NCBI GenBank assembly: GCA_039033415.1
Contig: JBCCCR010000001.1
Coordinates: 186,001 to 250,000, forward strand
Length of the DNA: 64,000 nt
From: Pseudomonadota bacterium
GTDB lineage: Bacteria > Pseudomonadota > Gammaproteobacteria > Xanthomonadales > SZUA-38
Direction of reading: 5' to 3'
Under the pieces are notes generated by a model that made no database searches, was not told the origin of the DNA, and saw only the letters and a list, made by a program, of their open reading frames with translations. The stretch's first letter is position 1. The number at the start of each line of letters is the position of its first letter. Positions 46,751 through 60,455 of the stretch are shown piece after piece. A program made the translations under genes and the position numbers.

Positions 46751-47275
46751 ATGCATCAAATCATTGCCGAGAAACAGGCGCTTGTTGCCGATCAGGCGGG
46801 CGTGTGGGACGGTGAATACGTTCATCTGGACGCCTCACATGAGGTCATCGACCGACATCGATCTCGACTGATCTGTCGCCTGGAAGACGGGGCTGACGGG
46901 GTCGCGATGCTCAAGCAGACCAATATCTACACCTGGGCTGACCAGCAGCAGGAAGTGCGCTACTTCGAGGGCGTCTTTCGCAAAGATCGCGTGTGGATCC
47001 AAAACGATTTAATCGACGGCTGGACCAGCGCGATCAGTCAGGACCAGACGCAGCGTACGATCATGGTTGGCTGGGTTCGTGTAGCGGAACCCGACTTTCG
47101 TTTCTACGAGCTGATCACGCTGTCCGAGGACGCCAATGAAAAGTCGCGCACGTGGCACTGGTATCGCCATGGTCGCCTGTTTCAGCGCACGCTGATCAAC
47201 GAAACCCGAACAGCGCGGGACTGGCGACCCTTCGACGATCCAGGGTTCTTCGTGTCCAGGCCCAAGGGCGCCTAG
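46751..47275 (+). CDS. Hypothetical protein, possible calycin fold
   Basis: 174 residues, no signal. Starts MHQIIAEKQALVADQAGVWDGEYVHLD and has an alternating beta pattern with WDGEY, TNIYTWADQQQEVRYFEG and TWHWYRHGRLFQRTLINETR, reminiscent of DUF3598-type lipocalin-like proteins; I am not sure. Third gene of the EamA group. Its stop and the stop of the convergent di-haem gene share the four bases CTAG. Confidence 0.6.
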   Translation: MHQIIAEKQALVADQAGVWDGEYVHLDASHEVIDRHRSRLICRLEDGADGVAMLKQTNIYTWADQQQEVRYFEGVFRKDRVWIQNDLIDGWTSAISQDQTQRTIMVGWVRVAEPDFRFYELITLSEDANEKSRTWHWYRHGRLFQRTLINETRTARDWRPFDDPGFFVSRPKGA

Positions 47276-48807
47276 TAGCTCAGCGTGCGAAGGAAGGCGA
47301 CGAGGTTGTCACGCTCCGCGTCGCTGAGGTTGAGTGCCGGAAGCTCCGGAACGGCTGGCTCACCCCCCACCTCGCGGTAGTAGTCGATCACCTCCGTTAA
47401 CGTGTCGAAGCGGCCGTCATGCATATAGGGTCCGGTTCGGGTGAGCGCTCGCAGGGTAGGGACCTTAAAGGCGCCGACGCTGTGCTCGTCAGAGTCGGTG
47501 TAGCGCAGGTGACGGCAGCCGTCTGCCGGCGCGTCGCTGTAGCGACCGCGGCAGTTGAACGGATCGTAGTTTGAAGCGGTTCGGCCGACAGCCCACCCTA
47601 GATCCTGCTCGGTGGGGCTGGCGGAGCCCGTACCGATGTTGTGAAAACCAAAATTGCTGAACATCGGGCCATTGTGGCAGCGAAGGCAGTGGGTTTTTCC
47701 CACGTCGAGAAACAGCTTGAGGCCCTGCAGTTCGTTTTCCTCGAGGGGTGACTGGCCGGGATCATCGAGCGTCAGCGAGTCTGCGAGGTGGTCGAAACGA
47801 CCGGCTTGAGGCTGCAGCGTCGCCACGTAGCTCGCGAGAACCTTGCCGACATTCGCAAACGCGCGATTGATCTGCTCCTGGCGAGCTGAGGGGAGGCGTT
47901 GCCAGCTCAGCTTATCCTCGCTCGTGCCATAGGGCCCGGCTTGCGGCGGCAAATCAGCCAGCTCGGGCAAGGCAATAGCTAGGTCTGCGAGCTGTTCAAC
48001 ATACCTGGGGGTTTGGGTCAGGTGACGCAGTACGCCGATTCGGGTGCTATCCATCTCGCCCTGGGTTTCCAGCGGCGTCAGGTTCTGTGCCCAAAGACTG
48101 TCACGGCGACCATCCCAATAGAACCAGTCGGCGCTGGCGATACCAACGAGCGTTTGGGCGTTTCTTCTGGTGGGCTGGCTGCCGACGCTTTGCTTTTTGC
48201 CGTCGGTGAAAGCCAGCTCAGGCTGGTGGCATGAGGCACAGGCGATCTGTCCATCCCGGCTGAGCCCCGGATCAAAAAACAGCGCTTTTCCCAGCGCCGC
48301 CGCATCAGCGTTTCCATGCAGCCGGTTGCTGGTGTCGGCGGCAGGTCGCAACGCGGAGAGGGCCAGCGATTGAGCTAGCTCGATCTCGGCCGGGGTCAGG
48401 TTGGAAGCGCGGGTTTCCGCGGGTTGGTCCGTCCGACCTGGACCGATTCGCAAATCGAACGTGGCCTTGTCTGACCCAGCGTCGGCGGTGACGCCGACGA
48501 CAATTTCCCAGCCGCCGTGCATGTTGAACGACACGCCTTCGACCAGGTATTGGCCGGGCGCGAGCTGGCGGGTTACCTGGGGCTCCGACGACATCCCGTG
48601 GCCGTGGCCGGGCATCCCCCCGTAGAACGCGAGCCGCTGCGGCGTCACGGGCTTGCCCTGCGCATCCAGCACGGACACGGTCCACTCATGGAGCTGGCCG
48701 ACAACCGGGGCCGCCCGAGCTTCGATCTCGACCTGGTACAGCCGGTTCTGAGTCCAGGCGAGTTCAGCAGCGATGCTGCTAAGCGATGGCGCTGTTACCA
48801 GCGCCAT
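47272..48807 (-). CDS. Di-haem cytochrome c peroxidase (MauG/CCP-like) with N-terminal FixH-like domain
   Basis: About 511 residues in the periplasm; the exact start is uncertain (ATG 48807 gives a short signal-like AVTAPSLSSIAA; no ribosome site seen). N-domain (about 25-125) is FixH/YtkA-like, with a His/Met cluster FYGGMPGHGHGM and NMHGGWEI that could bind copper. The C-domain is a bacterial di-haem peroxidase with CASCH (190-194) and CLRCH (374-378), GRRDSLWAQ, and GPYMHDGRFDTLTEVIDYY. Family members reduce H2O2 or, like MauG, modify a partner protein. It follows the giant copper-radical-oxidase gene by 44 nt on the same strand, so the two are probably one operon. Confidence 0.9.
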   Translation of the reverse strand: MALVTAPSLSSIAAELAWTQNRLYQVEIEARAAPVVGQLHEWTVSVLDAQGKPVTPQRLAFYGGMPGHGHGMSSEPQVTRQLAPGQYLVEGVSFNMHGGWEIVVGVTADAGSDKATFDLRIGPGRTDQPAETRASNLTPAEIELAQSLALSALRPAADTSNRLHGNADAAALGKALFFDPGLSRDGQIACASCHQPELAFTDGKKQSVGSQPTRRNAQTLVGIASADWFYWDGRRDSLWAQNLTPLETQGEMDSTRIGVLRHLTQTPRYVEQLADLAIALPELADLPPQAGPYGTSEDKLSWQRLPSARQEQINRAFANVGKVLASYVATLQPQAGRFDHLADSLTLDDPGQSPLEENELQGLKLFLDVGKTHCLRCHNGPMFSNFGFHNIGTGSASPTEQDLGWAVGRTASNYDPFNCRGRYSDAPADGCRHLRYTDSDEHSVGAFKVPTLRALTRTGPYMHDGRFDTLTEVIDYYREVGGEPAVPELPALNLSDAERDNLVAFLRTLSY

Positions 48808-48851
48808 CGTTACCAGGGCCCGCAGCAGGCGGGTGATCGGACCTGCGGTGA

Positions 48852-51800
48852 CTATTGCTCGTAGATCCGGATGTTGCTGAACAGCGAGTTGTTGCCGCTG
48901 CCGCTGTCGCGGTCATTGACCAGGACCAGATTCATGCTGCTGCCCGTGAAGTACTGCCCGACGGGAATCACGAAGCGAGTCCGCCCGCTTCCCGGGTAGG
49001 TCTTGAAGTCACGGATACCCCAGTTCTGGGTGCCGTAAAGGCTGAAGATCCGGTTGGAGGACAGCGAGTTGTTCTCGTCGAAGCCAATGCCGTGGATTTC
49101 GCCCTGGGCGCTGGATTCGAAGTCGAATTCGATCACCGTGTTCGCCGTGATCTGATAGGTCTGCAGCGTTCGCTTCCAGGTGTTGCGCTCCAGCAGCAGG
49201 CTGAGGCCCTGGTTGCTGATGGTGAAGTCGCCATTCACGTCCTGACCGCCGTAGGAACCGATGTCCGCGGGCGTAAACACGACGCAGTCATCGCAAGAAA
49301 CCGGCTCCTGGACACTTAGCTGGAACGTGGTGCTATCGGTGCCGCCGTTGCCGTCGTCCACCGTCACCGTGACGTCATAGCTTCCCAGCACGCTGGTGAC
49401 TCCGCTGATCAGACCGCCCGCATCCATCGACAGGCCTGCCGGCAGACCGTCAGCGCTGAAGGTAAGCGTATCGCCGTTCAGGTCGGTTGCATCGATGGCC
49501 AGCGAAACGCCTTCGCCGCTGTACACCGTGACCTGGCCCGGGCTGTTGAGGGTCGGCGCGATGTTGCTGCCGTCGCTGGTCAGGCGGATGTTGCGGAAGC
49601 GCGACGTGTTGCCGGAGCCGCTGTCGTTGTCGTTGACAAAGGTCATGTAGAAGCCGGTGCCGGTGTAGTACTGACCGACGGGAATCTGGAACGTCTGCCA
49701 GCCGGAGCCGCTGTACTGCGCAAAATCCCGTCGCCCCCAGTTCTGCGTGCCGTACACCTGGAACGTCAGGCTGCTGGAGATGCCGTCGTCGGTGTCGAAG
49801 CCGACGCCGTGGACCTCGCCGATGGCGGTGGAGCTGAACTCGAAGGTCAGGATCGTTTGCGGCAGAATCTCGAAGGTTTGCGTGGTGCGTTTCCAGGTGT
49901 TGTTGCTGAGCAACAGCACTTCCCCGTCGTCTTCCAGCGCAAAGTCGCCCGCCGCGTCCTGATTGCCGCCATAAGACACGATGGTCACGTCGTTAAACGA
50001 CACGCAGTCGGTGCAGCCAGGATCCGGCGGTGGGTCACCGATCAGTGACGTGGTGCCGTCCAGCTCCATCAAATAGGCGGAAAGCTGGTCGAGGTCGCTG
50101 TTGCTGAGCGAGATGCCGCTGTGGGCGAGCATCGCCTCGGAGACGTCGGCCGCTGAGCCGTCGTGCAGATAAGGTGCGGTGTTCCAAACGCTGATCAGCG
50201 TCGGCGTATCAAGTCCTGTCAGCGGGCCGCCGAGACGGTTCCCGCTGGAAGCCTTGATGGTGCCCACGTCGTGCAGGTCGCCGAGGATGCTGTCGGTGAA
50301 CAGCGGCGCGGCATGACAGCTATCGCACTGTTTGCTGCTGAACAGCTGTCGCCCCGCTTCGCCGGTGGCCGTCAGGGTGCCGTCGGTATTCCCGTGAGGG
50401 CTTGCCTCGTATTCATCCAGGGACCCGAGGTAGGCAGACATGGCGTCCAGATCGGCACTGATACCGGCCTTCGGGTCTCCGAGGGTCTGCGAGCGAGTTC
50501 CGGCATTAAAGTCGGCGTCCGCCATCAAGCCGGTCCCCCCTGCAAAATCTCGAATCTGGTTTTCGAAGTCCTGGACTTCGTCGAAGTTTCCGCTCCAGTG
50601 CAGGAATCCATGGACGGTTGCGGCGCGACCTTTAAGGGTGATGGTGTTACGCAGGCCTTCGTTGTCAGCGGTGGCGATACCCACGCGGGTGAAATCCCAG
50701 ATACGGCCATCCTGGCCGCCATCGTTGTGACATGACGCGCAGCTCATGTAGCTGTCCAGCGCCAGCCGCGGATCGCGGGCGTCGTAGAAGAGCTGCTTGC
50801 CCCGCAGCACCTCGGTGGTCAGCGCCTCGCTGGCAACGCTGCTGACGGAAGTCTCAAGGTTGATGGTCAGCTCGTTACGCTCGGTCAGCGCGGACAGGTC
50901 GAACACCGATACCGATCGATCCATGAAGTTATGAACGTACAGCCGGGCACCGTCGGAAGACACGGCAAGTCCCTGCGGCGCACGACCGGTGTCGAAACGC
51001 ATCAGCTCAACGGCCGTGTAGGCGTCGGTCACGGCGATTTCTCGATTACCTTCCAACGCGGTGAACAGATACGCACCAAAAGGACCAAACGCAGCGTGGC
51101 TGGCGAAGCTGGCGTTATCGTGGTCCACCCGTGCCCAGAAGGTCTCCTGGCTGGCGTTGAGGTCGATCTTTGATGTCACCGCTCGCACAGTCTGATCAAA
51201 CGTCATGCCCTGACCGCCGCGCCGGGCGCCGGCGAGGATGTTGTCCTGCTTTGAAGGTACCCACGCCGAGAGCTGGTCGGGCGAAATCACGGCCGGACCG
51301 AGATAGTTCGGCACACCCGGGCCGGAATGCTCGGATACGCCGCGGTCGCTGTGACGCAGCGTCACGGTGTCGGCAACGCTGAAGCTGCCGGTAGCCACAA
51401 CCACAACCTCACCACCGTGATAGTCGCCGTTCGTCTCGACGGATGGCGCAATGGTGGCTTCGCCGGGCAGTGGCGGAGTGATGAAGCGCGATACCAGCAA
51501 GGTGGCGCCGTCGCCGCTGATCGATAGGTGTCTGGGCCGTGCGCCGACCGGGAGTGACCCATTGACGGTGCGGCTGGCGACATCGATCCGCAGGACCTCG
51601 CCGGTCGCCTCCAGCGCCACGTAAGCGCTGCTGCCGCTCGGATCAAAAACCAGTCCATGAGGTTGCGAAGCTGCGGGCAGGTCGACCACTTCGAGGACAT
51701 TGCGGCTGCCGCCATCGATTCGGGTGAGCGTCCCTGCGTTCTTGCTAACGACCCATACCTCGCCGTTCGGTGCTGACTGCACCGCTACGGGTTGTCGGGC

Positions 51801-54800
51801 CACTGGAATCTCCGCTACCCGCTGCAGCGTTGTGGCGTCGATTACCGCCACGCTGTTGTTATCGGGATTGACGTTCCAGACTTCCGAGTCGCCGGCGCGC
51901 AGCGCAATCGGGCTTGATGACTGCGAAACGGTTCCCGGCAGGGGCAGGTGGATGAGCTGGACGAAGGTCTGGGTGATCTCCTCGCCGCTCATCGGATCCT
52001 GAACCGTGACCGTGACGACGTAGCGGCCGGGCGTCAGGTAGCTGTGCGTGGCGGTCGACTCGGTCGTCGGGCCAACGGTTGTGCCGTCCCCGAAGTTCCA
52101 GGTGTAGAGCAGCCCGTCACCGCCGGCGGCGGTGGCGCTGAACGCCGCGTCGGTGCCGCTGGTGGTGGGGATGGGCAAAATGGGATCCACGCTGAGCGGC
52201 AGATCAACCGGCACGTTCAGCGCCACAAAAGCCACCTGCTCATTGGTATGCGCACGTTCCGTGTCTCCCAGCGTGTCCTCGTCGATCGCCATACCGATCG
52301 TTTGCCCAGACACCGCATCCGGACCGATCAGAACGGGCCAGCCGCCGTTGTTGCCGTCCATGCCGGCAGACGACAGCACCGCCACGTTGCCGTCGATCTG
52401 CAGCGGATAGCTGTAGGGCGGCGAGTCACCGACGCCGCCAACGGAGTCGCTGCCGAGCCCTGCTTCGTACTCGTAGCTGCCAAGCGTCCCTGTGCCGCTT
52501 TCAAAGACCATGTAGCCGATGGTCTCCGACCCGCGAGCTGCTGTCGGATCTTCGGCCACGTGCATGCCGGTAAACAGCGAGCTGGCGGAGGGTGGGTTGG
52601 CGACAACGCCGTCCGACGCCCAGAAAACGCTGAAGCGATCGTCGCCGGCAGACATGACCTGGCCCACGACAACCGGGGCGGTGTAGCTCAGGGCATAGCC
52701 CTGCTCCTCGCCCACCCAAGAGTTGTTTTCGTCCGTTCGCCCGGAAAGGTATTTGACGGCCTCAAAGCGCCCCGCGCCGCCGTCGTAGCGGCCGGCTTCG
52801 GCGACCAGATAGTCGACCGTGTAGGTGCCGGCCGGGCCGGTGCTCGCGGCACTGCGCACGCGCAGCTCAAAGCTGTTTCCCACGGCATTGCGAACCTGGG
52901 TCACCATCGGTACGTCCGACGGCAGATACCGCGGCGTCGCGATCACGACCATGTCGGTATAGGTGTTGGGAAGACTGACGGTCTGCCAGGTTTCGTCGAC
53001 GTTCTCTGCCTGCCCGGAGAACAGCTGGGCATCTTCTGGCGGCTTGACCGACAGGTCGGCAACCGACAGATTGGAACCCGGGATCACCTCAATCTGTGTT
53101 GCCCCCGGCAGGGTCCAGCCGACGGCGAGGTTGTCGCCACCGCCGCCTTCTTTCTGCAGCGCCTCAATAAAATAGCTCTGGCCCGCCTGCAGGTCGATCA
53201 GCGCCGACTGCTGTTCCGGAAACTTGTCCCACTGGCGCGCGCCGCTCCAGCCGGGAACCTGTGCAATCAGGATCCGGTTGGCGGGTTCGTTGTCGGTGCT
53301 CAGCCACAGCTCGCCGCCGTCGTCGGAGGAGATGTGGAACTGATACTGGCCGTCCACCGGTGGGTGGAGATAACCGTGAACCCGGGTGCCGAAGTTGTCT
53401 TCCGTGTTGGTCGGAATCTCAAAGATATCGAGCGTGTCGGTCAGGGTGGGGCTGTCGGGATAAGCCGCGATGCTGGTCAGGTCGCTCACCGCCGTGCCGG
53501 GCACGCCGCTCCACTTGTCGCGGCGAATACTGCCCAAGCCCTGGCCGAAGACGCGCCACTGGAAGCTGCGCGACCGGCTGCCTTCGTCGTTGTCCGTCAC
53601 CGAGACCGTGACCTCATAGGTGCCCACCGCGGTTGCGGCGCCGACAATGGACTGCGTGGCCTGGTCAAGCTGTGTTCCGGTCGGCAGGCCGGTAGCGCTC
53701 AGCACCAGCGGATCGTCATCGGCGTCGCCGACAAACAGCGGGATATTGACGTCGTTGCCAACGCCGCTGCTGACCGGCGCCAGATTGTTGATCCAGGGCA
53801 TGCCGCTCGTGTTGGCCTGGACCACATGGGCCGTTGACGGAACCCCCTGCGCGTCGAGCCCGAATAGCATCCAGTAACCGGCGGTCAGCACGTTAGGATT
53901 GGCGTGCGCCTGCAGCGTGTATTGCCCCGGCGCATCCTGACTAAAGCCGACCTCGATGAAACGCACGTCGGTGTTCATGCCGTGCGTGGTTGAGCTCATT
54001 TTGATCATCGTAAAGCGAGCCAGATCCGTGGTGCCCTCGACGGCAAACGTTTGGCCGCTGGAGATGCGGGGCGGAGCGACGTCAATAGATGGACGCACCG
54101 CGGGAATGCCGCTGGCGTCAAATAGGTAGGAAGGTGAGTAGACCTCACCGTCGCGGTGGCTCGAGCCGTTGCAGTTGGCGTTGCCCGAGCAGTAGCCGCT
54201 GCCCGCCGCCAGCACGCGGCCGTCGGTCATGAGGAGCGCAATCGAGTGATAGTTGCGGGGCGTGACCATGGAAGCCCCCAGGCGCCACGTGCCGGTTTGC
54301 TCGTTCCAGATCTCCGTCGACAAGATTGCCCCGTCGTCGCTGAACTTGCGGCCCGACGTGTTGCCGCCGACCACCAGTACTTCACCGTTGGGGAGCATGA
54401 TGCCATTGTGGAATTTACGGGCGTGGTTCATCGAGCCTGTGAGGCTCACGACCGGCGCGGTGCCGTTGAGGTCGACGGTAAACGCCTGGTTAGAACTGGT
54501 GATGTTGTTGCCGGCGATCCAGCCGCCGGCGTTCAGGATCTTGCCCTCGGCGTACATGATCGAGGTGCCGTGCTTGTGGTACCAGTCGGTAAACTCCGGC
54601 CCGGACTGGCTGTAGCTGCCGTTACCGGTCGGATCGATGTAGTGCATCTTGGGCGTTGGTCCGGAATGAAAAATCTGACCGTTGGGCGCTACGTGGAGCA
54701 AAGGCCACCATCGCGACTCGCCGTGCGAGCCGCTGGAGAAGTAGTCGGTGAGCACCATGTCGTTGAAGTCGACCCCGTTTTTGATCTCCCAGCCGCTGTC

Positions 54801-55331
54801 GACGTTCCACACCTCGGGATAGCGAGGCTGGGACGCCGTGCCGATCGCGGTGAACATATCGCCGTTGGCCAGCGCGATGGTGGTGGGGTACCAGCGTCCA
54901 CCCGAGGGCATGTTTTCGATCTGCACCCACTCGCTATTACGGAAATCGAAGATGCTGGTCCACGGGCTGTTGGTCTGGTTGCGGCCGCCGTTCACAAACA
55001 CCCGGCCGTCTTCCATCATCGCCAGGTGGGCGCAGAACATGTTGTGCGTGGGGTGAAAAACCTCCTCAAAAACGCCGGTGGCGGGATCCCAGGTGGCGCT
55101 GTAGGTCTGCTCGGTACTGGGCCAGGTTTCTCGCTCTGATCCCGACCACGTGAGGATTCGTCCATCGGGCAGGTTGGCCGCTGAAACGGCGATGTGCGGC
55201 CAGTCGATCACGGGTCCCCATTGCCCGCCTTCCTCTGGGTCCTCAGGCCCGGCCAGCGCCTGGCCGGCAAGGAAGAAACACAGGAAGAGAGAGACTACGG
55301 TGGCGGTGGAGCGGTACTGCTGCTGTTCCAT
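48852..55331 (-). CDS. Giant exported copper radical oxidase fused to a di-haem cytochrome c domain
   Basis: 2159 residues. ATG 55331 starts the signal peptide (to GQALAG); a TTG five codons earlier is less likely. Domains: galactose/glyoxal-oxidase-like kelch propeller plus DUF1929-type domain (30-510) with ligands Cys100 (NMFCAH), Tyr148 (GGRWYP), Tyr361-His362 (NYHS) and His450 (TTHGMN); an Ig/He_PIG-like domain (515-594); PA14 (about 598-760); a beta domain with H-type-lectin-like features (about 765-850) and linker; PKD (1046-1130); YVTN propeller (1145-1480); a cytochrome c/peroxidase-like part (1500-1755) with CASCH (1531-1535) and CDSCH (1669-1673); then two copies of an unnamed about 145-residue domain (1773-1917, 2013-2156) around a second He_PIG (1925-2007). 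Expected chemistry: alcohol or aldehyde plus O2 to oxidised product plus H2O2. Substrate unknown. Confidence 0.88.
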   Translation of the reverse strand: MEQQQYRSTATVVSLFLCFFLAGQALAGPEDPEEGGQWGPVIDWPHIAVSAANLPDGRILTWSGSERETWPSTEQTYSATWDPATGVFEEVFHPTHNMFCAHLAMMEDGRVFVNGGRNQTNSPWTSIFDFRNSEWVQIENMPSGGRWYPTTIALANGDMFTAIGTASQPRYPEVWNVDSGWEIKNGVDFNDMVLTDYFSSGSHGESRWWPLLHVAPNGQIFHSGPTPKMHYIDPTGNGSYSQSGPEFTDWYHKHGTSIMYAEGKILNAGGWIAGNNITSSNQAFTVDLNGTAPVVSLTGSMNHARKFHNGIMLPNGEVLVVGGNTSGRKFSDDGAILSTEIWNEQTGTWRLGASMVTPRNYHSIALLMTDGRVLAAGSGYCSGNANCNGSSHRDGEVYSPSYLFDASGIPAVRPSIDVAPPRISSGQTFAVEGTTDLARFTMIKMSSTTHGMNTDVRFIEVGFSQDAPGQYTLQAHANPNVLTAGYWMLFGLDAQGVPSTAHVVQANTSGMPWINNLAPVSSGVGNDVNIPLFVGDADDDPLVLSATGLPTGTQLDQATQSIVGAATAVGTYEVTVSVTDNDEGSRSRSFQWRVFGQGLGSIRRDKWSGVPGTAVSDLTSIAAYPDSPTLTDTLDIFEIPTNTEDNFGTRVHGYLHPPVDGQYQFHISSDDGGELWLSTDNEPANRILIAQVPGWSGARQWDKFPEQQSALIDLQAGQSYFIEALQKEGGGGDNLAVGWTLPGATQIEVIPGSNLSVADLSVKPPEDAQLFSGQAENVDETWQTVSLPNTYTDMVVIATPRYLPSDVPMVTQVRNAVGNSFELRVRSAASTGPAGTYTVDYLVAEAGRYDGGAGRFEAVKYLSGRTDENNSWVGEEQGYALSYTAPVVVGQVMSAGDDRFSVFWASDGVVANPPSASSLFTGMHVAEDPTAARGSETIGYMVFESGTGTLGSYEYEAGLGSDSVGGVGDSPPYSYPLQIDGNVAVLSSAGMDGNNGGWPVLIGPDAVSGQTIGMAIDEDTLGDTERAHTNEQVAFVALNVPVDLPLSVDPILPIPTTSGTDAAFSATAAGGDGLLYTWNFGDGTTVGPTTESTATHSYLTPGRYVVTVTVQDPMSGEEITQTFVQLIHLPLPGTVSQSSSPIALRAGDSEVWNVNPDNNSVAVIDATTLQRVAEIPVARQPVAVQSAPNGEVWVVSKNAGTLTRIDGGSRNVLEVVDLPAASQPHGLVFDPSGSSAYVALEATGEVLRIDVASRTVNGSLPVGARPRHLSISGDGATLLVSRFITPPLPGEATIAPSVETNGDYHGGEVVVVATGSFSVADTVTLRHSDRGVSEHSGPGVPNYLGPAVISPDQLSAWVPSKQDNILAGARRGGQGMTFDQTVRAVTSKIDLNASQETFWARVDHDNASFASHAAFGPFGAYLFTALEGNREIAVTDAYTAVELMRFDTGRAPQGLAVSSDGARLYVHNFMDRSVSVFDLSALTERNELTINLETSVSSVASEALTTEVLRGKQLFYDARDPRLALDSYMSCASCHNDGGQDGRIWDFTRVGIATADNEGLRNTITLKGRAATVHGFLHWSGNFDEVQDFENQIRDFAGGTGLMADADFNAGTRSQTLGDPKAGISADLDAMSAYLGSLDEYEASPHGNTDGTLTATGEAGRQLFSSKQCDSCHAAPLFTDSILGDLHDVGTIKASSGNRLGGPLTGLDTPTLISVWNTAPYLHDGSAADVSEAMLAHSGISLSNSDLDQLSAYLMELDGTTSLIGDPPPDPGCTDCVSFNDVTIVSYGGNQDAAGDFALEDDGEVLLLSNNTWKRTTQTFEILPQTILTFEFSSTAIGEVHGVGFDTDDGISSSLTFQVYGTQNWGRRDFAQYSGSGWQTFQIPVGQYYTGTGFYMTFVNDNDSGSGNTSRFRNIRLTSDGSNIAPTLNSPGQVTVYSGEGVSLAIDATDLNGDTLTFSADGLPAGLSMDAGGLISGVTSVLGSYDVTVTVDDGNGGTDSTTFQLSVQEPVSCDDCVVFTPADIGSYGGQDVNGDFTISNQGLSLLLERNTWKRTLQTYQITANTVIEFDFESSAQGEIHGIGFDENNSLSSNRIFSLYGTQNWGIRDFKTYPGSGRTRFVIPVGQYFTGSSMNLVLVNDRDSGSGNNSLFSNIRIYEQ
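48864..49295 (-). repeat. Second copy of the twin C-terminal domain
   Basis: Residues about 2013-2156 of the giant protein. Shared with the first copy: a leading CxxC, the pattern SYGG-x-GDF, NTWKRTxQT, IxFxFxSxAxGExHGxGFD, YGTQNWGxRDF, VGQYxTG and VNDxDSGSGNxS. Terminal domain of the protein. Confidence 0.85.
49581..50015 (-). repeat. First copy of the twin C-terminal domain
   Basis: Residues about 1773-1917 of the giant protein, starting at CTDC. Clearly homologous to the copy at 48864-49295 but substantially diverged, so the duplication is not recent. It probably forms a carbohydrate-binding-module-like beta-sandwich; that is inference. Confidence 0.85.
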
Positions 55332-55700: not shown

Positions 55701-56873
55701 ATGGCAAAAATCAACAAATCTCGACGAAGCCTGCTTGGAGGATTGGGTGCCGCGGGTGTGGCCGGAATGGCTGCGGGCACAGCCGCGCAGGCGCAGCCGG
55801 ACGGTCCGGACTGGTCTGATATTAGGGTGGCTCAAAACGGTCGTTACGAGACGGTGCCTCTGCGCCAGCAGTCCATTAACGTGTCGGCGATTCAGTCGCG
55901 GGTCCGGTCGGTCGACATCCGCAACCTGAAGAAGACCCTGTCTGCCAACCTGGACCACGTCGTCAAGCTGATCAACTATGCGCAGGGTGCGCCGGAAGAG
56001 TGGGGCGGTGAACGTCGCTGGGGCAGTAAGCAGGACCTCATCTGCATGCACGAGTTTCCGATCCAGGGATTCCAGCCGTGGACGCGTAAGGAGCTGAATC
56101 GGGTCGCCTTCGAACTGCCGGGGCCGGAGACCGAGATCATTGGCGAGCGGGCGAAGAAGTTTGGCTGCTACATCGCCTTCGGCTGCTACGCCAAAGACAA
56201 AGACTGGCCCGGGCACGTCATCAACATGTCAGTGATTGTGGGGCCCGACGGCAATATCGTGTCCAAGCAGTGGAAAGCGCGAAACATTCTCGGCCTCTTC
56301 GGCGCGGGTGCGCTGATCGGCACAACCGTCTACAACGTGTTAGATCGCTACGTTGAGATGTACGGCTGGGACGCCACTCTGCCGATCGCCCGCACCGATA
56401 TCGGCAACATCGCGATGACGGCGGTGGGCATCGAGCCCATGATCTATCAATGCCTGGCGCTGAAGGGCGCGGAGATTTTGATTATGTCGGTGACCGGTGG
56501 CTCCAACGCCAGCTCCGCCACAGAGGCGGCGCGTACCAACCGCATCTATACCGTCGGTGTCGGCAACGCGGTATCGCCGGACAACATCGGCTTTATGGAT
56601 GCCGCCGGCGCCCGGGAAGAGGGCACGGTAATCATCGACCCGCGAGGCACGGTGGTCGGCAAAACCAGCAACGCGAACGAAGACACGGCCCGCGCCCGGA
56701 TTCCGATCGGGGACTTTCGCGAGACCCGCCGATTCCGAGAGGTACCGGCAGCGCTGATTGCGCCGGTGCTGATGCAGTATCAGCCGCGCTTCCAGCCCAA
56801 CGCGTTTCTCGACGAGCTGCCCGAGACCTATGAGGCCGCCGGTGATCTGGTGCGAAAGAAGATGAGTAGCTAA
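55701..56873 (+). CDS. Tat-exported nitrilase-superfamily protein lacking the usual catalytic cysteine
   Basis: 390 residues, GGGAG before the ATG, Tat signal (KSRRSLLGGLGAAG) ending near AQAQP. The carbon-nitrogen hydrolase fold is clear: CMHEFPIQGF supplies the catalytic Glu118, VSKQWKARN the Lys192, and LALKGAEILIMS the strand after the nucleophile elbow. In nitrilases the elbow is a cysteine 16 residues before GAE (usually CYD/CYE). Here that position is Thr240 (IAMTAVGIEP), and the only nearby cysteine is Cys251, eleven residues later. So the protein may be non-catalytic, use another nucleophile, or have a shifted active site. Genomic neighbours are catabolic oxidoreductases. Confidence 0.85.
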   Translation: MAKINKSRRSLLGGLGAAGVAGMAAGTAAQAQPDGPDWSDIRVAQNGRYETVPLRQQSINVSAIQSRVRSVDIRNLKKTLSANLDHVVKLINYAQGAPEEWGGERRWGSKQDLICMHEFPIQGFQPWTRKELNRVAFELPGPETEIIGERAKKFGCYIAFGCYAKDKDWPGHVINMSVIVGPDGNIVSKQWKARNILGLFGAGALIGTTVYNVLDRYVEMYGWDATLPIARTDIGNIAMTAVGIEPMIYQCLALKGAEILIMSVTGGSNASSATEAARTNRIYTVGVGNAVSPDNIGFMDAAGAREEGTVIIDPRGTVVGKTSNANEDTARARIPIGDFRETRRFREVPAALIAPVLMQYQPRFQPNAFLDELPETYEAAGDLVRKKMSS

Positions 56874-56930
56874 GGGGCGGTGGACCATGCGGCCCACTAG
56901 AGCGCCCGAGCGGCCACCCGCGTAGTCGCC

Positions 56931-58433
56931 TCAGCTTGGTGTGATGTTGGCGTTGAGCCGAAAAAGATTTTCCGGGTCGTAGGCTTTCTTGACCTTCGCC
57001 AGTTTGGGGAAATTGTGACGATAGTTGGCGTTGACCTGCTGCTGTGACTCGTCAAACAGGTCGTTGGAATAAAATCCGCGGGTGTAGGGCTCCATCTTGG
57101 CCCAGTATTGCTTGCTATCCTGCACGTGTTCGTCGGAGTCGGTGCCGTGTTTCCACGCCACCATGGACAGCATGTTGTGACTGGCTTCTCGGTGAGCAAA
57201 TGCCGTTGCGTCGGCAGAGACGCGATTGATTGCGCCGCCGCTCTGCTGAAAGGCAAACCAGGTAACCCGGTTAGGCTTCGGGTCGAAGTAGTCCACCAGG
57301 TCGTCAACCATCCGGCTGTCGATGGCACCAATAAATCCAGATTTCTGGTAGGAGCCATTGGCCCTGGGGTCATCGGAGTCTCCTGAGCGCTGCAGGGCCA
57401 CATAGTCGATCTTCGAGACGACTTCCCGCGTTGTTTTGCCGGCTTTGCGGATTGGTGCAAGCAGCTGATCAAGCCTGCTGACGTCTTCTCCACTGAAAAC
57501 GACGCTAAGCGTCACCGCGGCGGGCCCACCCCCTGGCGGCGAGAACATACTGGCGCTGAGTTCCATGTCGTCTGGTATCTGCTCAGCGTACTCACCAAAG
57601 AAGCGCAGGACCTGTTTTGCCTGAGGCTGCGGGAAAGAGAAGCGCGCCCGCACAACCTCCCGCTGCATCGGGTGGAGGCCAAAGAGAAACGAGGTGACCA
57701 CACCGAAGTTTCCGCCACCGCCGCGCAGCGCCCAGTAGAGGTCGGGGTTTTCATCCGGGGCGGCTCGGCGCAGCTGCCCGTCGGGTGTGACCACGTCCAT
57801 CTCCAGCAGATTGTCGATGGTCATGCCGAACCGGCGCCCGAGTCGGCCGAAACCACCACCTAGGGTCAGGCCGCCGACGCCCGTATGTGAGACGGTGCCC
57901 GCCGTGGTGACCAGGCCGTGGGCCATAGCTTCGTGATCCAGCTCGCCGAGAAGGCTGCCGCCGTCGACCCGTGCGGTGCGCGCCTTCGGGTCGACGCGAA
58001 CGCCGTGGAAGTTGGACAGATCAATCTGCAGCCCGCCGTCGCAGGTGGACTTTCCGGAGGCGCTGTGTCCGCCGCACTTCACGGCGACCAGCAGCTGGTG
58101 CTCGCGGGCGAAATTAACGGCGCTCTGCACGTCCGCAACGCCAGTTGGCTGGGCAATCAGCGCGGGGTGTTTGTCGAAGGTGGGGTTGAGCAGCAGACGA
58201 GCTTTGTCATAGCCATCCACATGCGGCAGCAACAGATGACTCTTCAGCCGATTGCTGAAGTCCTGCACGTCGCTGGCTTTAAGCGTAATCAGACTGCCGT
58301 CCCCCGTGACGGCCTGGATGTCACCCTTGACCGCGGTGGGCACATACTTGAGGGAGGTTTTTGCGTGGGCGAGCGGCAGTGTTGAGGTCAGCGCCGCGGC
58401 GAGTGATGACTGTAAAAATTGACGGCGTCGCAT
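56931..58433 (-). CDS. Tat-exported FAD-dependent oxidoreductase (BBE type)
   Basis: 500 residues, GGGAGG 5 nt before the ATG, Tat-like signal (MRRRQFLQSSLAAALTS). FAD-binding PCMH domain: VKCGGHSASGKS with the His expected to carry 8-alpha-histidyl-FAD, VSHTGVGGLTLGGGFGRLGRRFG, WALRGGGGNFGVV. The C-terminal BBE segment YRHNFPKLAKVKKAYDPENLFRLNANI is complete. The second covalent cysteine of plant berberine-bridge enzymes (CPTVG-type) is replaced by SHTGV, so a single covalent link is expected. It may be the last gene of the leftward run starting at 61502. Oxidises sugars, alcohols or amines elsewhere; substrate unknown here. Confidence 0.9.
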   Translation of the reverse strand: MRRRQFLQSSLAAALTSTLPLAHAKTSLKYVPTAVKGDIQAVTGDGSLITLKASDVQDFSNRLKSHLLLPHVDGYDKARLLLNPTFDKHPALIAQPTGVADVQSAVNFAREHQLLVAVKCGGHSASGKSTCDGGLQIDLSNFHGVRVDPKARTARVDGGSLLGELDHEAMAHGLVTTAGTVSHTGVGGLTLGGGFGRLGRRFGMTIDNLLEMDVVTPDGQLRRAAPDENPDLYWALRGGGGNFGVVTSFLFGLHPMQREVVRARFSFPQPQAKQVLRFFGEYAEQIPDDMELSASMFSPPGGGPAAVTLSVVFSGEDVSRLDQLLAPIRKAGKTTREVVSKIDYVALQRSGDSDDPRANGSYQKSGFIGAIDSRMVDDLVDYFDPKPNRVTWFAFQQSGGAINRVSADATAFAHREASHNMLSMVAWKHGTDSDEHVQDSKQYWAKMEPYTRGFYSNDLFDESQQQVNANYRHNFPKLAKVKKAYDPENLFRLNANITPS

Positions 58434-58533
58434 GTTGCCTCCCGAGGCGCTCGCTGCTCAGCGTTCGCGTGCTACTTTCAAGCTACGATAGCAAACTCGT
58501 GCAGCCTGTTGATTCCACTTGCCAAGCGATCCC

Positions 58534-59361
58534 TTACAGGGAATCTGCGATGCGACTTTTCATAACGGACAGCACTTCGTCACCGTCGCGCTGCCACCAG
58601 TCCTTGTCCGAAAAGATTTCCACCTCGTAGCAACCCTGGTAGCCGGCTCGCTCCATCCAGCTCCGAAGCTGTTTTAGGTCGATCACGCCGTCCCCCATCA
58701 TGCCGCGGTCGAAAGCGAGGTCACGCGTGTTTTCCAGCCAGTCGCACACGTGAAAGGCGAGCAGCCGGTCTGAGGCGCCCGCTCGCTGGATTTCCTGCGC
58801 AAGCTGTGGGTCCCACCACACGTGATAGGCGTCCAGCGCAATGCCGAGGCCGTCACCCAGCTCGTCGCACAGGTCGTTCGCCTGGCTCAGGGAATTAACG
58901 CAGGCCGTAGTGGCCGCGTACATCGGGTGCAGCGGCTCTAGCGCGAGGGCAACGCCGGCGGCCCGGGCGCGTGGCAGCAGCTGGCCGAGCGCATCGCGCA
59001 CCTGCCGACGGGCGCCGGCCAGGTCTTTGGAGCCGTCCGGCAGGCCCCCGACCACTAGCACTAGGCAGGAAGCGCCCATCTCCGCAGCGTGATCGATCGC
59101 CAGGTAGTGCGCGTCCAGCAATGCCCGGCGGGTGGCCTGATCGGCGCCGGTTAGCATGCCGGCGCCGCAGAGGCCTGTGACAGTGAGCCCGGAATCCCTC
59201 AGCAGCTTAATGGCCTGCTTGCTGCCCATTTCTTTTAACTGGAAGCACCAGGGGGTAATCCCTTTCAGTTCGTGGCGAAGACAGCCTTCAACGGCCTGTG
59301 TGAGGTTCCACTGCCGGTGCGTTGTGATGGTGTTGAGCGAGGTCCGGGCTGCGTCAGCCAT
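58534..59361 (-). CDS. TIM-barrel sugar phosphate isomerase/epimerase-like protein
   Basis: 275 residues of the xylose-isomerase-like TIM-barrel family. Motifs include CLVLVVGGLPDG, GVALALEPLHPMYAATTACVNSL (metal Glu in LEPLHP), GIALDAYHVWWD (Asp/His), LAFHVCDWL and GCYEVEIFSD (final Glu). Metal-dependent isomerase or epimerase of small sugars or related compounds; the family is functionally broad. 42 nt downstream of the nitronate-monooxygenase-like gene on the same strand. Confidence 0.87.
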   Translation of the reverse strand: MADAARTSLNTITTHRQWNLTQAVEGCLRHELKGITPWCFQLKEMGSKQAIKLLRDSGLTVTGLCGAGMLTGADQATRRALLDAHYLAIDHAAEMGASCLVLVVGGLPDGSKDLAGARRQVRDALGQLLPRARAAGVALALEPLHPMYAATTACVNSLSQANDLCDELGDGLGIALDAYHVWWDPQLAQEIQRAGASDRLLAFHVCDWLENTRDLAFDRGMMGDGVIDLKQLRSWMERAGYQGCYEVEIFSDKDWWQRDGDEVLSVMKSRIADSL

Positions 59362-59403
59362 GAGAGGTTTCCGGCGAAGACAGGGTGCATTCGACCGGCC
59401 GGA

Positions 59404-60387
59404 TCAAACCGCCGAGCCCACCATGCCACCCAGACGCGATTCGATAATGCTTTCGGCCTCGGCTATGATCCGGTCCATCAGCTCCTGGACGGTTGGGATA
59501 TCGTTAATCAACCCCGCGACCATGCCGCACGACCAGGCGCCCGCATCCATATCACCCTCCATCATGATCCGAGGATAAACGCCGGCAACCTCATCGATGA
59601 TGTCCTCGAACTTCAGCTGGTCGCCAAGCCGCTTCTCCTTTTCTAGCAGGCTTTCCACGGCTGCGTTGTTCAGCACCCTTTCCGTGTTGCGCAGCGGCCG
59701 CATCACCAGCCGCGTCTCCAGCTCGGAGGCGTTCACGATGGCCTGTTTGACGTTCTCGTGGACCGGCGCTTCCTTGGTGGCGATGAAGCGCGTGCCCATG
59801 TTCATGCCGTCCGCCCCCATGGCCAGAGACGCAACCAGCGAACGGCCGTCCGCCTGGCCGCCGGACGCCACAAAAGGGATTTCCAGCTCGTCGGCTGCGC
59901 GAGGCAGCAGGATCATATTGGGTACATCGTCCTCCCCCGGATGCCCGCCACACTCGAAGCCGTCAACGCTGGCGGCATCACAGCCGATCGACTGGGCTTT
60001 GAGCGCGTGGCGCACCGACGTGCATTTATGCACCACCTTGATGCCGGCGTCCTGCAGGTATGGCAGGACCTGGGAAGGGTTGTTGCCCGCGGTCTCTACG
60101 ATTTTGACGCCACCCTGAATGATGGTCTTGATGATGGCCGGGTAATCCGGTGCGTTCACGGTCGGGAGGAACGTCACGTTTACTCCGAAGGGCTTGTCCG
60201 TCATGTCGTGACAGCGCGCGATTTCGTTGGCCAGGTCTGCGGGCGTTTTTTGGGTCAGGCCAGTGATGATGCCCAGACCGCCCGCGTTGCTGACCGCCGC
60301 CGCCAGCTCGGCAAAGCCAACGTAGTGCATGCCGCCCTGAATGATGGGGTGCTCGATGTTCAGCAGTTCGGTGATTCGGGTTTTCAT
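59404..60387 (-). CDS. Nitronate monooxygenase-like FMN protein
   Basis: 327 residues from ATG 60387. FMN-binding TIM barrel with QGGMHYVG, LAAAVSNAGGLGIITG, PFGVNVTF, GVKIVETAGNNP, SVDGFECGGHPGEDD and VASGGQADGRSLVASLAMGADGMNMGTRF. Nitronate monooxygenase (class I-like) oxidises alkyl nitronates; many members are mis-assigned and act as general FMN oxidoreductases or dehydrogenases. Lies in the leftward catabolic run. Confidence 0.9.
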   Translation of the reverse strand: MKTRITELLNIEHPIIQGGMHYVGFAELAAAVSNAGGLGIITGLTQKTPADLANEIARCHDMTDKPFGVNVTFLPTVNAPDYPAIIKTIIQGGVKIVETAGNNPSQVLPYLQDAGIKVVHKCTSVRHALKAQSIGCDAASVDGFECGGHPGEDDVPNMILLPRAADELEIPFVASGGQADGRSLVASLAMGADGMNMGTRFIATKEAPVHENVKQAIVNASELETRLVMRPLRNTERVLNNAAVESLLEKEKRLGDQLKFEDIIDEVAGVYPRIMMEGDMDAGAWSCGMVAGLINDIPTVQELMDRIIAEAESIIESRLGGMVGSAV

Positions 60388-60455
60388 CAATGGGTTTCCA
60401 GTTCCTTGAGGCGGACGTTGAGGGTGAAGGCTGGCGGCAGGTTCGCAATGGTGGG

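Follow-up and report, generated by a model that had tools for sequence, protein, structure and literature searches.

A bacterial copper radical oxidase fused to a hydrazine-synthase-like propeller and di-haem domain, and a possible role for its haem parts in maturing or re-activating the copper site

We analysed a stretch of DNA of 64,000 nucleotides (hereafter the window; positions 186,001 to 250,000 of the forward strand of contig JBCCCR010000001.1, assembly GCA_039033415.1) from a Pseudomonadota bacterium that GTDB places in Gammaproteobacteria, Xanthomonadales, SZUA-38. One of its genes encodes a protein of 2159 residues that joins a copper radical oxidase (CRO) of the galactose oxidase kind to a di-haem cytochrome c domain. 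A first-pass annotation, made from the sequence alone, had picked out this fusion and suggested searching for the same architecture in other genomes; the search yielded 19 proteins with CRO and di-haem domains in one frame, from Gammaproteobacteria, from the phylum of a Verrucomicrobiaceae metagenome-assembled genome (MAG) and from one cultured Comamonadaceae. A gene for a MauG/MbnH-type di-haem enzyme lies beside 15 of the 18 fusions found first, 14 times on the same strand and once divergently (genome G1441). Because CRO, copper-type domain and haem oxidant come together at these loci, and one haem unit is part of the CRO chain itself, we favour, tentatively, the explanation that the haem parts may help to mature or re-activate the copper-radical site, using its peroxide.

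Architecture of the fusion protein

The gene and the features of its product are as follows, in window coordinates.

48852..55331, minus strand: fusion gene, 2159 residues; CRO, Ig/PA14/other modules, PKD, YVTN propeller, di-haem domain and C-terminal repeats
55251..55331, minus strand: signal-peptide-like N-terminus, residues 1-27, judged by eye
53817..55241, minus strand: CRO (galactose-oxidase-like) domain, residues 31-505, by Pfam and PDB search
55032..55034, minus strand: Cys100, predicted cross-link Cys, by alignment
54888..54893, minus strand: Trp147-Tyr148, predicted cross-linked Tyr after a Trp, as W509-Y510 of the fungal aldehyde oxidase FgrAldOx
54246..54251, minus strand: Tyr361-His362, predicted axial Tyr and His ligand, by alignment
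53982..53984, minus strand: His450, predicted second His ligand, by alignment
53085..53417, minus strand: PA14 domain, residues 639-749, by Pfam
51978..52175, minus strand: PKD domain, residues 1053-1118, by Pfam
50892..51923, minus strand: YVTN-type beta-propeller, residues about 1137-1480, by profile and fold search
50022..50849, minus strand: di-haem cytochrome c domain (hydrazine-synthase-gamma / bacterial CCP superfamily), residues 1495-1770
50727..50741, minus strand: first CxxCH motif, residues 1531-1535
50313..50327, minus strand: second CxxCH motif, residues 1669-1673
50121..50123, minus strand: His1737, predicted distal ligand of a bis-His haem, at the MauG-type axial Tyr position
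49575..50006, minus strand: C-terminal repeat 1, residues 1776-1919
48858..49283, minus strand: C-terminal repeat 2, residues 2017-2158, 55% identical to repeat 1

The minus frame is a single open frame ending at the stop at 48852, and the plus-strand frame over the same coordinates holds many stops. The whole chain is kept in a congener (94% identical) and, over its full length, at locus L038 of another MAG (63% identical), which rules out an artefact of chance, assembly or frame, and the recurrence of the fusion in 19 proteins rules out a one-off assembly chimera. The annotated picture of an exported protein with PA14, PKD and YVTN modules between its two halves held up: the N-terminus is signal-like by eye, and Pfam gives the order Kelch/CRO, He_PIG, PA14, PKD, YVTN propeller, di-haem domain and two C-terminal repeats around a further He_PIG. 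Neither repeat has a Pfam name among the best 25 of the 29 matches of the chain. Stretches resembling these repeats (about 140 residues each, window 48858-50006) also occur on other large proteins; the repeats match 13 plasmid records, of which the 12 listed carry the annotation cadherin-like, YD-repeat, carbohydrate-binding, Ig-like, discoidin or hypothetical.

The N-terminal domain belongs with the galactose oxidase/GlxA family, as had been claimed. Residues 31-505 match solved galactose oxidases, the nearest solved structures, at E 1.7e-80 (phmmer, PDB), and Pfam GO-like_E_set scores 66.9 bits against a cut-off of 25. Pfam Glyoxal_oxid_N falls just under its cut-off (37.4 versus 37.5 bits), and the NCBIfam GlxA equivalog (NF052501) well below (150 versus 800 bits). 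PDB chains named 'secreted protein', which we take to be GlxA, match the domain at 2.8e-25 and weaker. Alignment confirmed the five ligands proposed for the copper-radical centre (Cys100, Tyr148, Tyr361-His362 and His450). They are intact wherever covered in the 18 first-found fusions (Cys in 17/17, the others in 18/18), and in the nineteenth as well.

In the alignment, which is gappy in this loop, the W290 column holds Ala and the R330 column Glu in the window protein, and the Comamonadaceae fusion has equivalents of W290, Y329 and R330, giving it a galactose-oxidase-type active site. In GlxA, W288 directly precedes the cross-link Tyr. Trp147 does the same in the window protein, apparently occupying a second-shell position known from a solved CRO. 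A recent report describes consecutive W509-Y510 in FgrAldOx, with the Trp flipped like W288 of bacterial GlxA (PMC13094651, 2026), a likeness that in the window protein is one of sequence position only. Galactose 6-oxidase activity is said to be marked by the W290/R330 pair (PMC11267884), and with that pair absent galactose is an unlikely substrate of the window protein. Because these two positions hold Ala and Glu and a Trp precedes the predicted cross-link Tyr, present alignments point to an oxidase of aldehydes or simple alcohols, rather than a galactose oxidase, as the likelier identity of the window enzyme.

The C-terminal half was annotated as carrying two CxxCH sites in a MauG/CCP-like context, and this too stands; of the two outcomes that the annotation had named as refuting it, neither was obtained. 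The motifs start at residues 1531 and 1669, where composition alone would give 0.0013 such motifs in a chain of 2159 residues, and the region passes Pfam CCP_MauG (34.8 bits, cut-off 25.6). A 16-sequence profile of the region has hydrazine synthase gamma as its best match (E 6.9e-23) and then matches di-haem peroxidases (3o5c, E 2.9e-20), with matching stretches at both haems. A fold search pairs the propeller before it with the beta subunit of hydrazine synthase and with a YVTN protein of an archaeal surface layer. The predicted model of propeller and haem domain has a mean predicted local distance difference test score (pLDDT) of 83.7 and a predicted template modelling score of 0.87, lower in the haem part, and the fold-search matches listed for it are propellers that span the propeller only. 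A His of the second haem stands in the column of the MauG axial Tyr, which we take to be Tyr294 and to lie at this position, in all 18 fusions aligned and in a 16-row alignment of fusions and two others; in the profile alignment it falls on a His of hydrazine synthase gamma. The fused haem half is thus, by these comparisons, nearer to hydrazine synthase gamma, placed after a beta-like propeller, than to a classical peroxidase or MauG, and because a conserved His also replaces the MauG Tyr, a plain peroxidase role cannot be taken for granted.

Two contigs of the window genome (C21 and C7; loci L002 and L003) encode paralogous PKD-YVTN-di-haem proteins in open frames of about 1450 residues that have no CRO. 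The YVTN/di-haem module had no match in the phage collection.

Recurrence and genomic partners

The fusions come from the window genome and its congener; from MAG loci of Gammaproteobacteria CALBPI, Woeseiaceae JANQMR and Verrucomicrobiaceae CANETF (N-terminus cut); from genomes G486 (two), G341, G721, G1531 and G1441; from seven further members of the phylum of the Verrucomicrobiaceae MAG; and from a plasmid of a leaf isolate in culture, Comamonadaceae bacterium OTU4NAUVB1, where the product (UST56369.1) is annotated as 'discoidin domain-containing protein'. The last lies at L178:9382-15689 (CP099607.1), among genes annotated for gallate/protocatechuate catabolism. Because only the two congeners carry the fusion among 299 genomes sampled from the order of the window genome, its spread is patchy. 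In the other samples it was found in 3 of 369 genomes of the class, 2 of 398 of the phylum, 8 of 387 of the phylum of the Verrucomicrobiaceae MAG and 3 of 121 of the family of G721. All these counts are lower bounds, since few candidates per genome were scored and the gene is cut in G638 and G1323, and the samples overlap. Five other long CRO-like open reading frames (ORFs) of the own-order sample, two of them cut, have no CxxCH in the stretches examined, a check that covered all but a sixth place (the second in G289). In G638 there is a broken relative (L063:6162-7463), a CRO fragment that shares 77% identity with the window protein and contains a stop; it is followed directly by a YtkA-like stretch, and the adjoining ORF resembles a transposase by eye.

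Trees of the two halves differ in what they say of the fusion. On the tree of CRO domains the label 'fused' requires at least 4 changes; the ORF at L040 (CR_Sed MAG), unfused in a first version of this tree, runs off its contig and was left out of the second. On the unrooted tree of 27 haem modules, all 19 CRO-linked modules form one clade (97/97 support) apart from the 8 modules without a CRO. The active site of the Comamonadaceae fusion is of the galactose oxidase type and those of the other 18 are of the Trp-before-Tyr type. With a single haem clade and two active-site types, the predicted history is that of one haem-module lineage kept with, or re-joined to, differing CRO types, and because of this the trees favour a coupling of the module to copper-radical chemistry over a coupling to one substrate.

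In the window, the gene next to the fusion is P0002.

47272..48807, minus strand: P0002, 511 residues, YtkA-like domain and MauG/MbnH-type di-haem enzyme, 44 nucleotides downstream of the fusion
48496..48738, minus strand: YtkA-like domain of P0002, residues 24-104
47377..47379, minus strand: Tyr477 of P0002, at the MauG/MbnH-type axial Tyr position, invariant in 15/15 partners aligned

P0002 matches Pfam CCP_MauG at 116.2 bits, has two CxxCH motifs and carries the axial Tyr. It stays below the curated cut-offs for MauG and MbnH (TIGR03791, 141.7 versus 443.85 bits; TIGR04039, 134.2 versus 362.85 bits). YtkA/CtaK is a copper chaperone. The predicted model of P0002 is weak overall (pLDDT 68.5), and its better-predicted YtkA-like domain matches CrdA, a copper protein of Helicobacter pylori (Foldseek E 5.7e-5). 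The start of P0002 (window 47272-48912) is uncertain: the N-terminus from the first ATG is hydrophobic and very short, and the frame continues upstream for 35 codons without ATG, GTG or TTG.

Neighbours could be assessed at 18 of the 19 loci, the contig of Verr1038 beginning within the gene so that its upstream neighbour cannot be judged. YtkA is fused or adjacent to the MauG-type partner at eight gammaproteobacterial loci, and a Pfam scan of seven of the eight puts YtkA above the cut-off at six and just below it in G721 (25.6 versus 25.9). The partner itself carries the YtkA domain at the four closest loci (by Pfam at three; the fourth partner is 83% identical to P0002), and a YtkA-like gene of its own stands next to the MauG-type gene in G341, G721, G1531 and G1441. 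At seven loci from the phylum of the Verrucomicrobiaceae MAG the partner joins Pfam MbnP to an MbnH-like enzyme (7/7). The Comamonadaceae locus has, instead of a MauG-type gene, an SCO-family copper chaperone and a small protein with one CxxCH, of no Pfam family, whose gene overlaps the end of the fusion gene. Because three copper-type partners (YtkA, MbnP and SCO) attend one architecture, these predicted neighbours speak for a need of copper supply that the fusion loci have in common.

A census of ten genomes, nine with a MauG neighbour and G486, counted 27 CCP_MauG matches with E < 1e-20, neighbours included, in 49.7 Mb, that is 0.003 expected per 6-kb flank, a figure that is not a probability as the loci are related. 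In four of the ten (G000, G721, G1531 and G1441) the neighbour is the only such match. Among the 121 genomes of the family of G721, nine have full-domain CRO matches (E < 1e-48), and these nine are also the ones with strong matches to P0002 (E < 1e-70).

Upstream of the fusion, window 55701-60390 holds a carbon-nitrogen hydrolase gene on the plus strand. The minus-strand genes there encode an FAD oxidase of the berberine type, a barrel protein like xylose isomerase and a protein resembling nitronate monooxygenase. L037 retains the FAD oxidase, which was not found at L038 or L039.

Possible roles of the haem parts

As judged from family membership and conserved ligands, the N-terminal domain would bind Cu(II), form the Cys100-Tyr148 cross-link and oxidize a primary alcohol or aldehyde while reducing O2 to H2O2; the accessory modules may hold a glycan surface that carries the substrate. 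In the explanation that we favour, the neighbouring YtkA/MbnP-MauG/MbnH unit would supply copper and the oxidative step that builds or activates the CRO site, a part comparable to that of Sco and DtpA in the maturation of Streptomyces GlxA. The fused domain, of whose two haems one is predicted to be bis-His and the other is probably open, would take oxidizing equivalents from the H2O2 of the CRO and return the inactive, one-electron-reduced copper site to its Cu(II)-radical state, much as the fungal peroxidase acts on its alcohol oxidase, and might dispose of peroxide as well. The first-pass annotation had offered peroxide removal or electron return; given the YtkA-MauG neighbour, maturation or activation is at least as well indicated. 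A stronger proposal, which we hold to be unlikely, is a haem-wired enzyme in which the MauG-type partner cross-links and oxidizes the Cys-Tyr site and the fused haems keep that site in its radical form or draw off its electrons. If true, such an enzyme could work where O2 alone cannot activate the site, and the Cys-Tyr site would be a new kind of MauG substrate.

Several points weigh against a maturing or re-activating role. Galactose oxidase cross-links itself with copper and O2 alone, and no enzyme is strictly needed. More than 1000 residues separate the CRO site from the haems, and the fused domain lacks the MauG/MbnH-type axial Tyr, which counts against MauG-like bis-Fe(IV) chemistry. The Trp before the cross-link Tyr, present in 18/18 fused and 18/22 unfused CRO rows, is not special to fusions. 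Neither of the two G486 fusions has a MauG-type neighbour, and the 12-kb flanks of the Comamonadaceae locus hold no second two-haem ORF. The haem module is not exclusive to CROs, as it is found on two non-CRO proteins of the window genome. The YtkA-MauG pair, for its part, occurs in G348, where nothing matches the fusion protein at E 1e-15, and in G486 and G590 on contigs other than those of the CRO genes. Six genomes of genus g548 carry MauG as well as an unfused CRO at another place, and at the three g548 loci examined (L157:9038-13675, L158:9278-13919 and L159:6406-11008) the MauG gene lies beside a YtkA gene and one for a large protein, which is an LVIVD-repeat protein by Pfam in the two scanned (L157 and L159) and might be a different target of the pair. 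Because pairs occur without a CRO neighbour in g548, G348, G486 and G590, the predicted YtkA-MauG unit is portable and not CRO-specific, and the idea of a dedicated CRO maturase is weakened accordingly.

The main rival explanation is that the CRO works as a dehydrogenase whose substrate electrons pass through the fused haems to a small cytochrome c and on to the respiratory chain, a route that would replace or accompany transfer to O2. The second haem, predicted to be bis-His and so electron-transferring, like haem gamma-II of hydrazine synthase (PMC12607021), speaks for it, as do the overlapping one-CxxCH protein of the Comamonadaceae locus and, in G341, a small cytochrome-c-looking ORF with one CxxCH about 1 kb from the fusion on the other strand (L062:2628-2993). 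At the other 17 loci scanned, however, there is no convincing ORF for a small cytochrome c, the one-CxxCH ORFs of G1225, G1228 and G1272 not being cytochrome-like by eye, and the common neighbour is a MauG-type enzyme. We also know of no cytochrome acceptor for CROs, which are two-electron, O2-reducing oxidases, and on balance regard electron return as improbable. Somewhat more doubtful still is that modules were merely shuffled, with the CRO and the YVTN-di-haem part sharing a chain without chemical coupling and the MauG-copper gene serving separately, as MbnP/MbnH do. The module on non-CRO N-termini in the window genome and the YtkA-MauG pairs remote from CROs fit this, and fused propeller/di-haem (beta-gamma) homologues are described as prevalent in environmental bacteria (PMC12758564). 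Yet the 19 CRO-linked modules form one clade although their CRO halves come from several lineages, and among the loci compared the MauG neighbour tracks the CRO version: flanks of a few kb around six non-CRO modules (G1345, G1227, G1061, G1019, G1416 and G647) showed none, and no strong MauG gene lies near L002 or L003.

Protection from peroxide as the sole function, with the di-haem domain as a peroxidase that destroys CRO-made H2O2 and so spares the protein or the cell surface, would suit the membership of the fused domain in the CCP superfamily, and DtpA has been proposed to remove the H2O2 of GlxA too (PMC4736821). We consider it quite improbable nevertheless, given that the fused domain resembles hydrazine synthase gamma more than it does peroxidases, that a peroxidase needs an electron donor and none is evident, and that a free catalase or peroxidase would presumably serve equally. 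The closeness to hydrazine synthase, in the best haem-profile match and in the match of the propeller to the beta subunit, might instead suggest that the haem domain handles NO or another small molecule in the manner of hydrazine synthase gamma, with the CRO separate. This we hold to be very unlikely: PMC12758564 describes non-anammox homologues in which a Trp, as in MauG/CCP, replaces a hydrazine synthase His, and the fusions keep a Trp in their HW motif that may correspond to it.

Relation to known systems and significance

Among the titles listed in literature searches that left most subscription journals outside their scope, we found no link between a CRO and a cytochrome or MauG, and no description of a CRO as a MauG-type target. 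The annotated novelty of the fusion thus stands within that scope: the parts are known, and neither the fusion chain, a CRO with a built-in haem partner, nor its locus was found described. The words 'galactose oxidase' are absent from the main text of PMC12758564.

The closest bacterial parallel is GlxA of Streptomyces lividans, a secreted CRO that, at low copper, needs both the haem peroxidase DtpA and the copper chaperone Sco in order to mature (PMC4736821). DtpA, however, is a free-standing DyP whose gene is not near glxA, whereas here a c-type di-haem domain is fused and a YtkA-MauG gene adjoins. Genes for a CRO and a haem peroxidase are likewise paired in the fungi Colletotrichum and Magnaporthe, where the peroxidase activates the alcohol oxidase by one-electron oxidation of its Cu(II) non-radical form (PMC9770985); that peroxidase is a separate eukaryotic class II enzyme, with no c-type haem and no copper domain. 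The order of a YVTN-type propeller and then a di-haem domain, with a second haem that is bis-His by alignment, recalls the beta and gamma subunits of hydrazine synthase, which are fused in Scalindua (PMC12607021, PMC12758564). No CRO occurs there, and the window protein scores 47 bits with NCBIfam hydrazine_BC (NF052342), whose cut-off is 1250. To galactose 6-oxidases (AA5_2), its nearest solved structures, the N-terminal domain is alike in its identical ligands; the window protein is unlike them in missing the W290/R330 pair (PMC11267884), which the Comamonadaceae fusion has.

Methylamine dehydrogenase is the target of MauG. MauG-like enzymes also partner copper proteins (MbnP/MopE), with MopE-type proteins as possible targets (PMC3621798). 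P0002 is likewise of the MauG/MbnH type with its Tyr, and the partners in the phylum of the Verrucomicrobiaceae MAG join MbnP to such an enzyme; scores remain below the curated NCBIfam cut-offs for MauG, MbnH and MbnP, and the gammaproteobacterial copper-type domain is YtkA. If our favoured explanation is true, MauG-type chemistry would extend to a new class of target.

To our knowledge, the question of which oxidant activates bacterial CROs at large has no answer. To be fully active, CROs need an outside one-electron oxidant, which is horseradish peroxidase in vitro and a tandem peroxidase in some fungi (PMC9770985). The fusion family suggests that its bacteria have made the haem helper which other CROs must borrow a part of the enzyme, and its haem module on the same chain, with a copper-domain/MauG gene that mostly adjoins, makes the question of CRO activation directly testable. 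The fusion is also a possible self-activating biocatalyst, and it gives chemical context to the hydrazine-synthase-like propeller/di-haem proteins that are common in environmental bacteria (PMC12758564).

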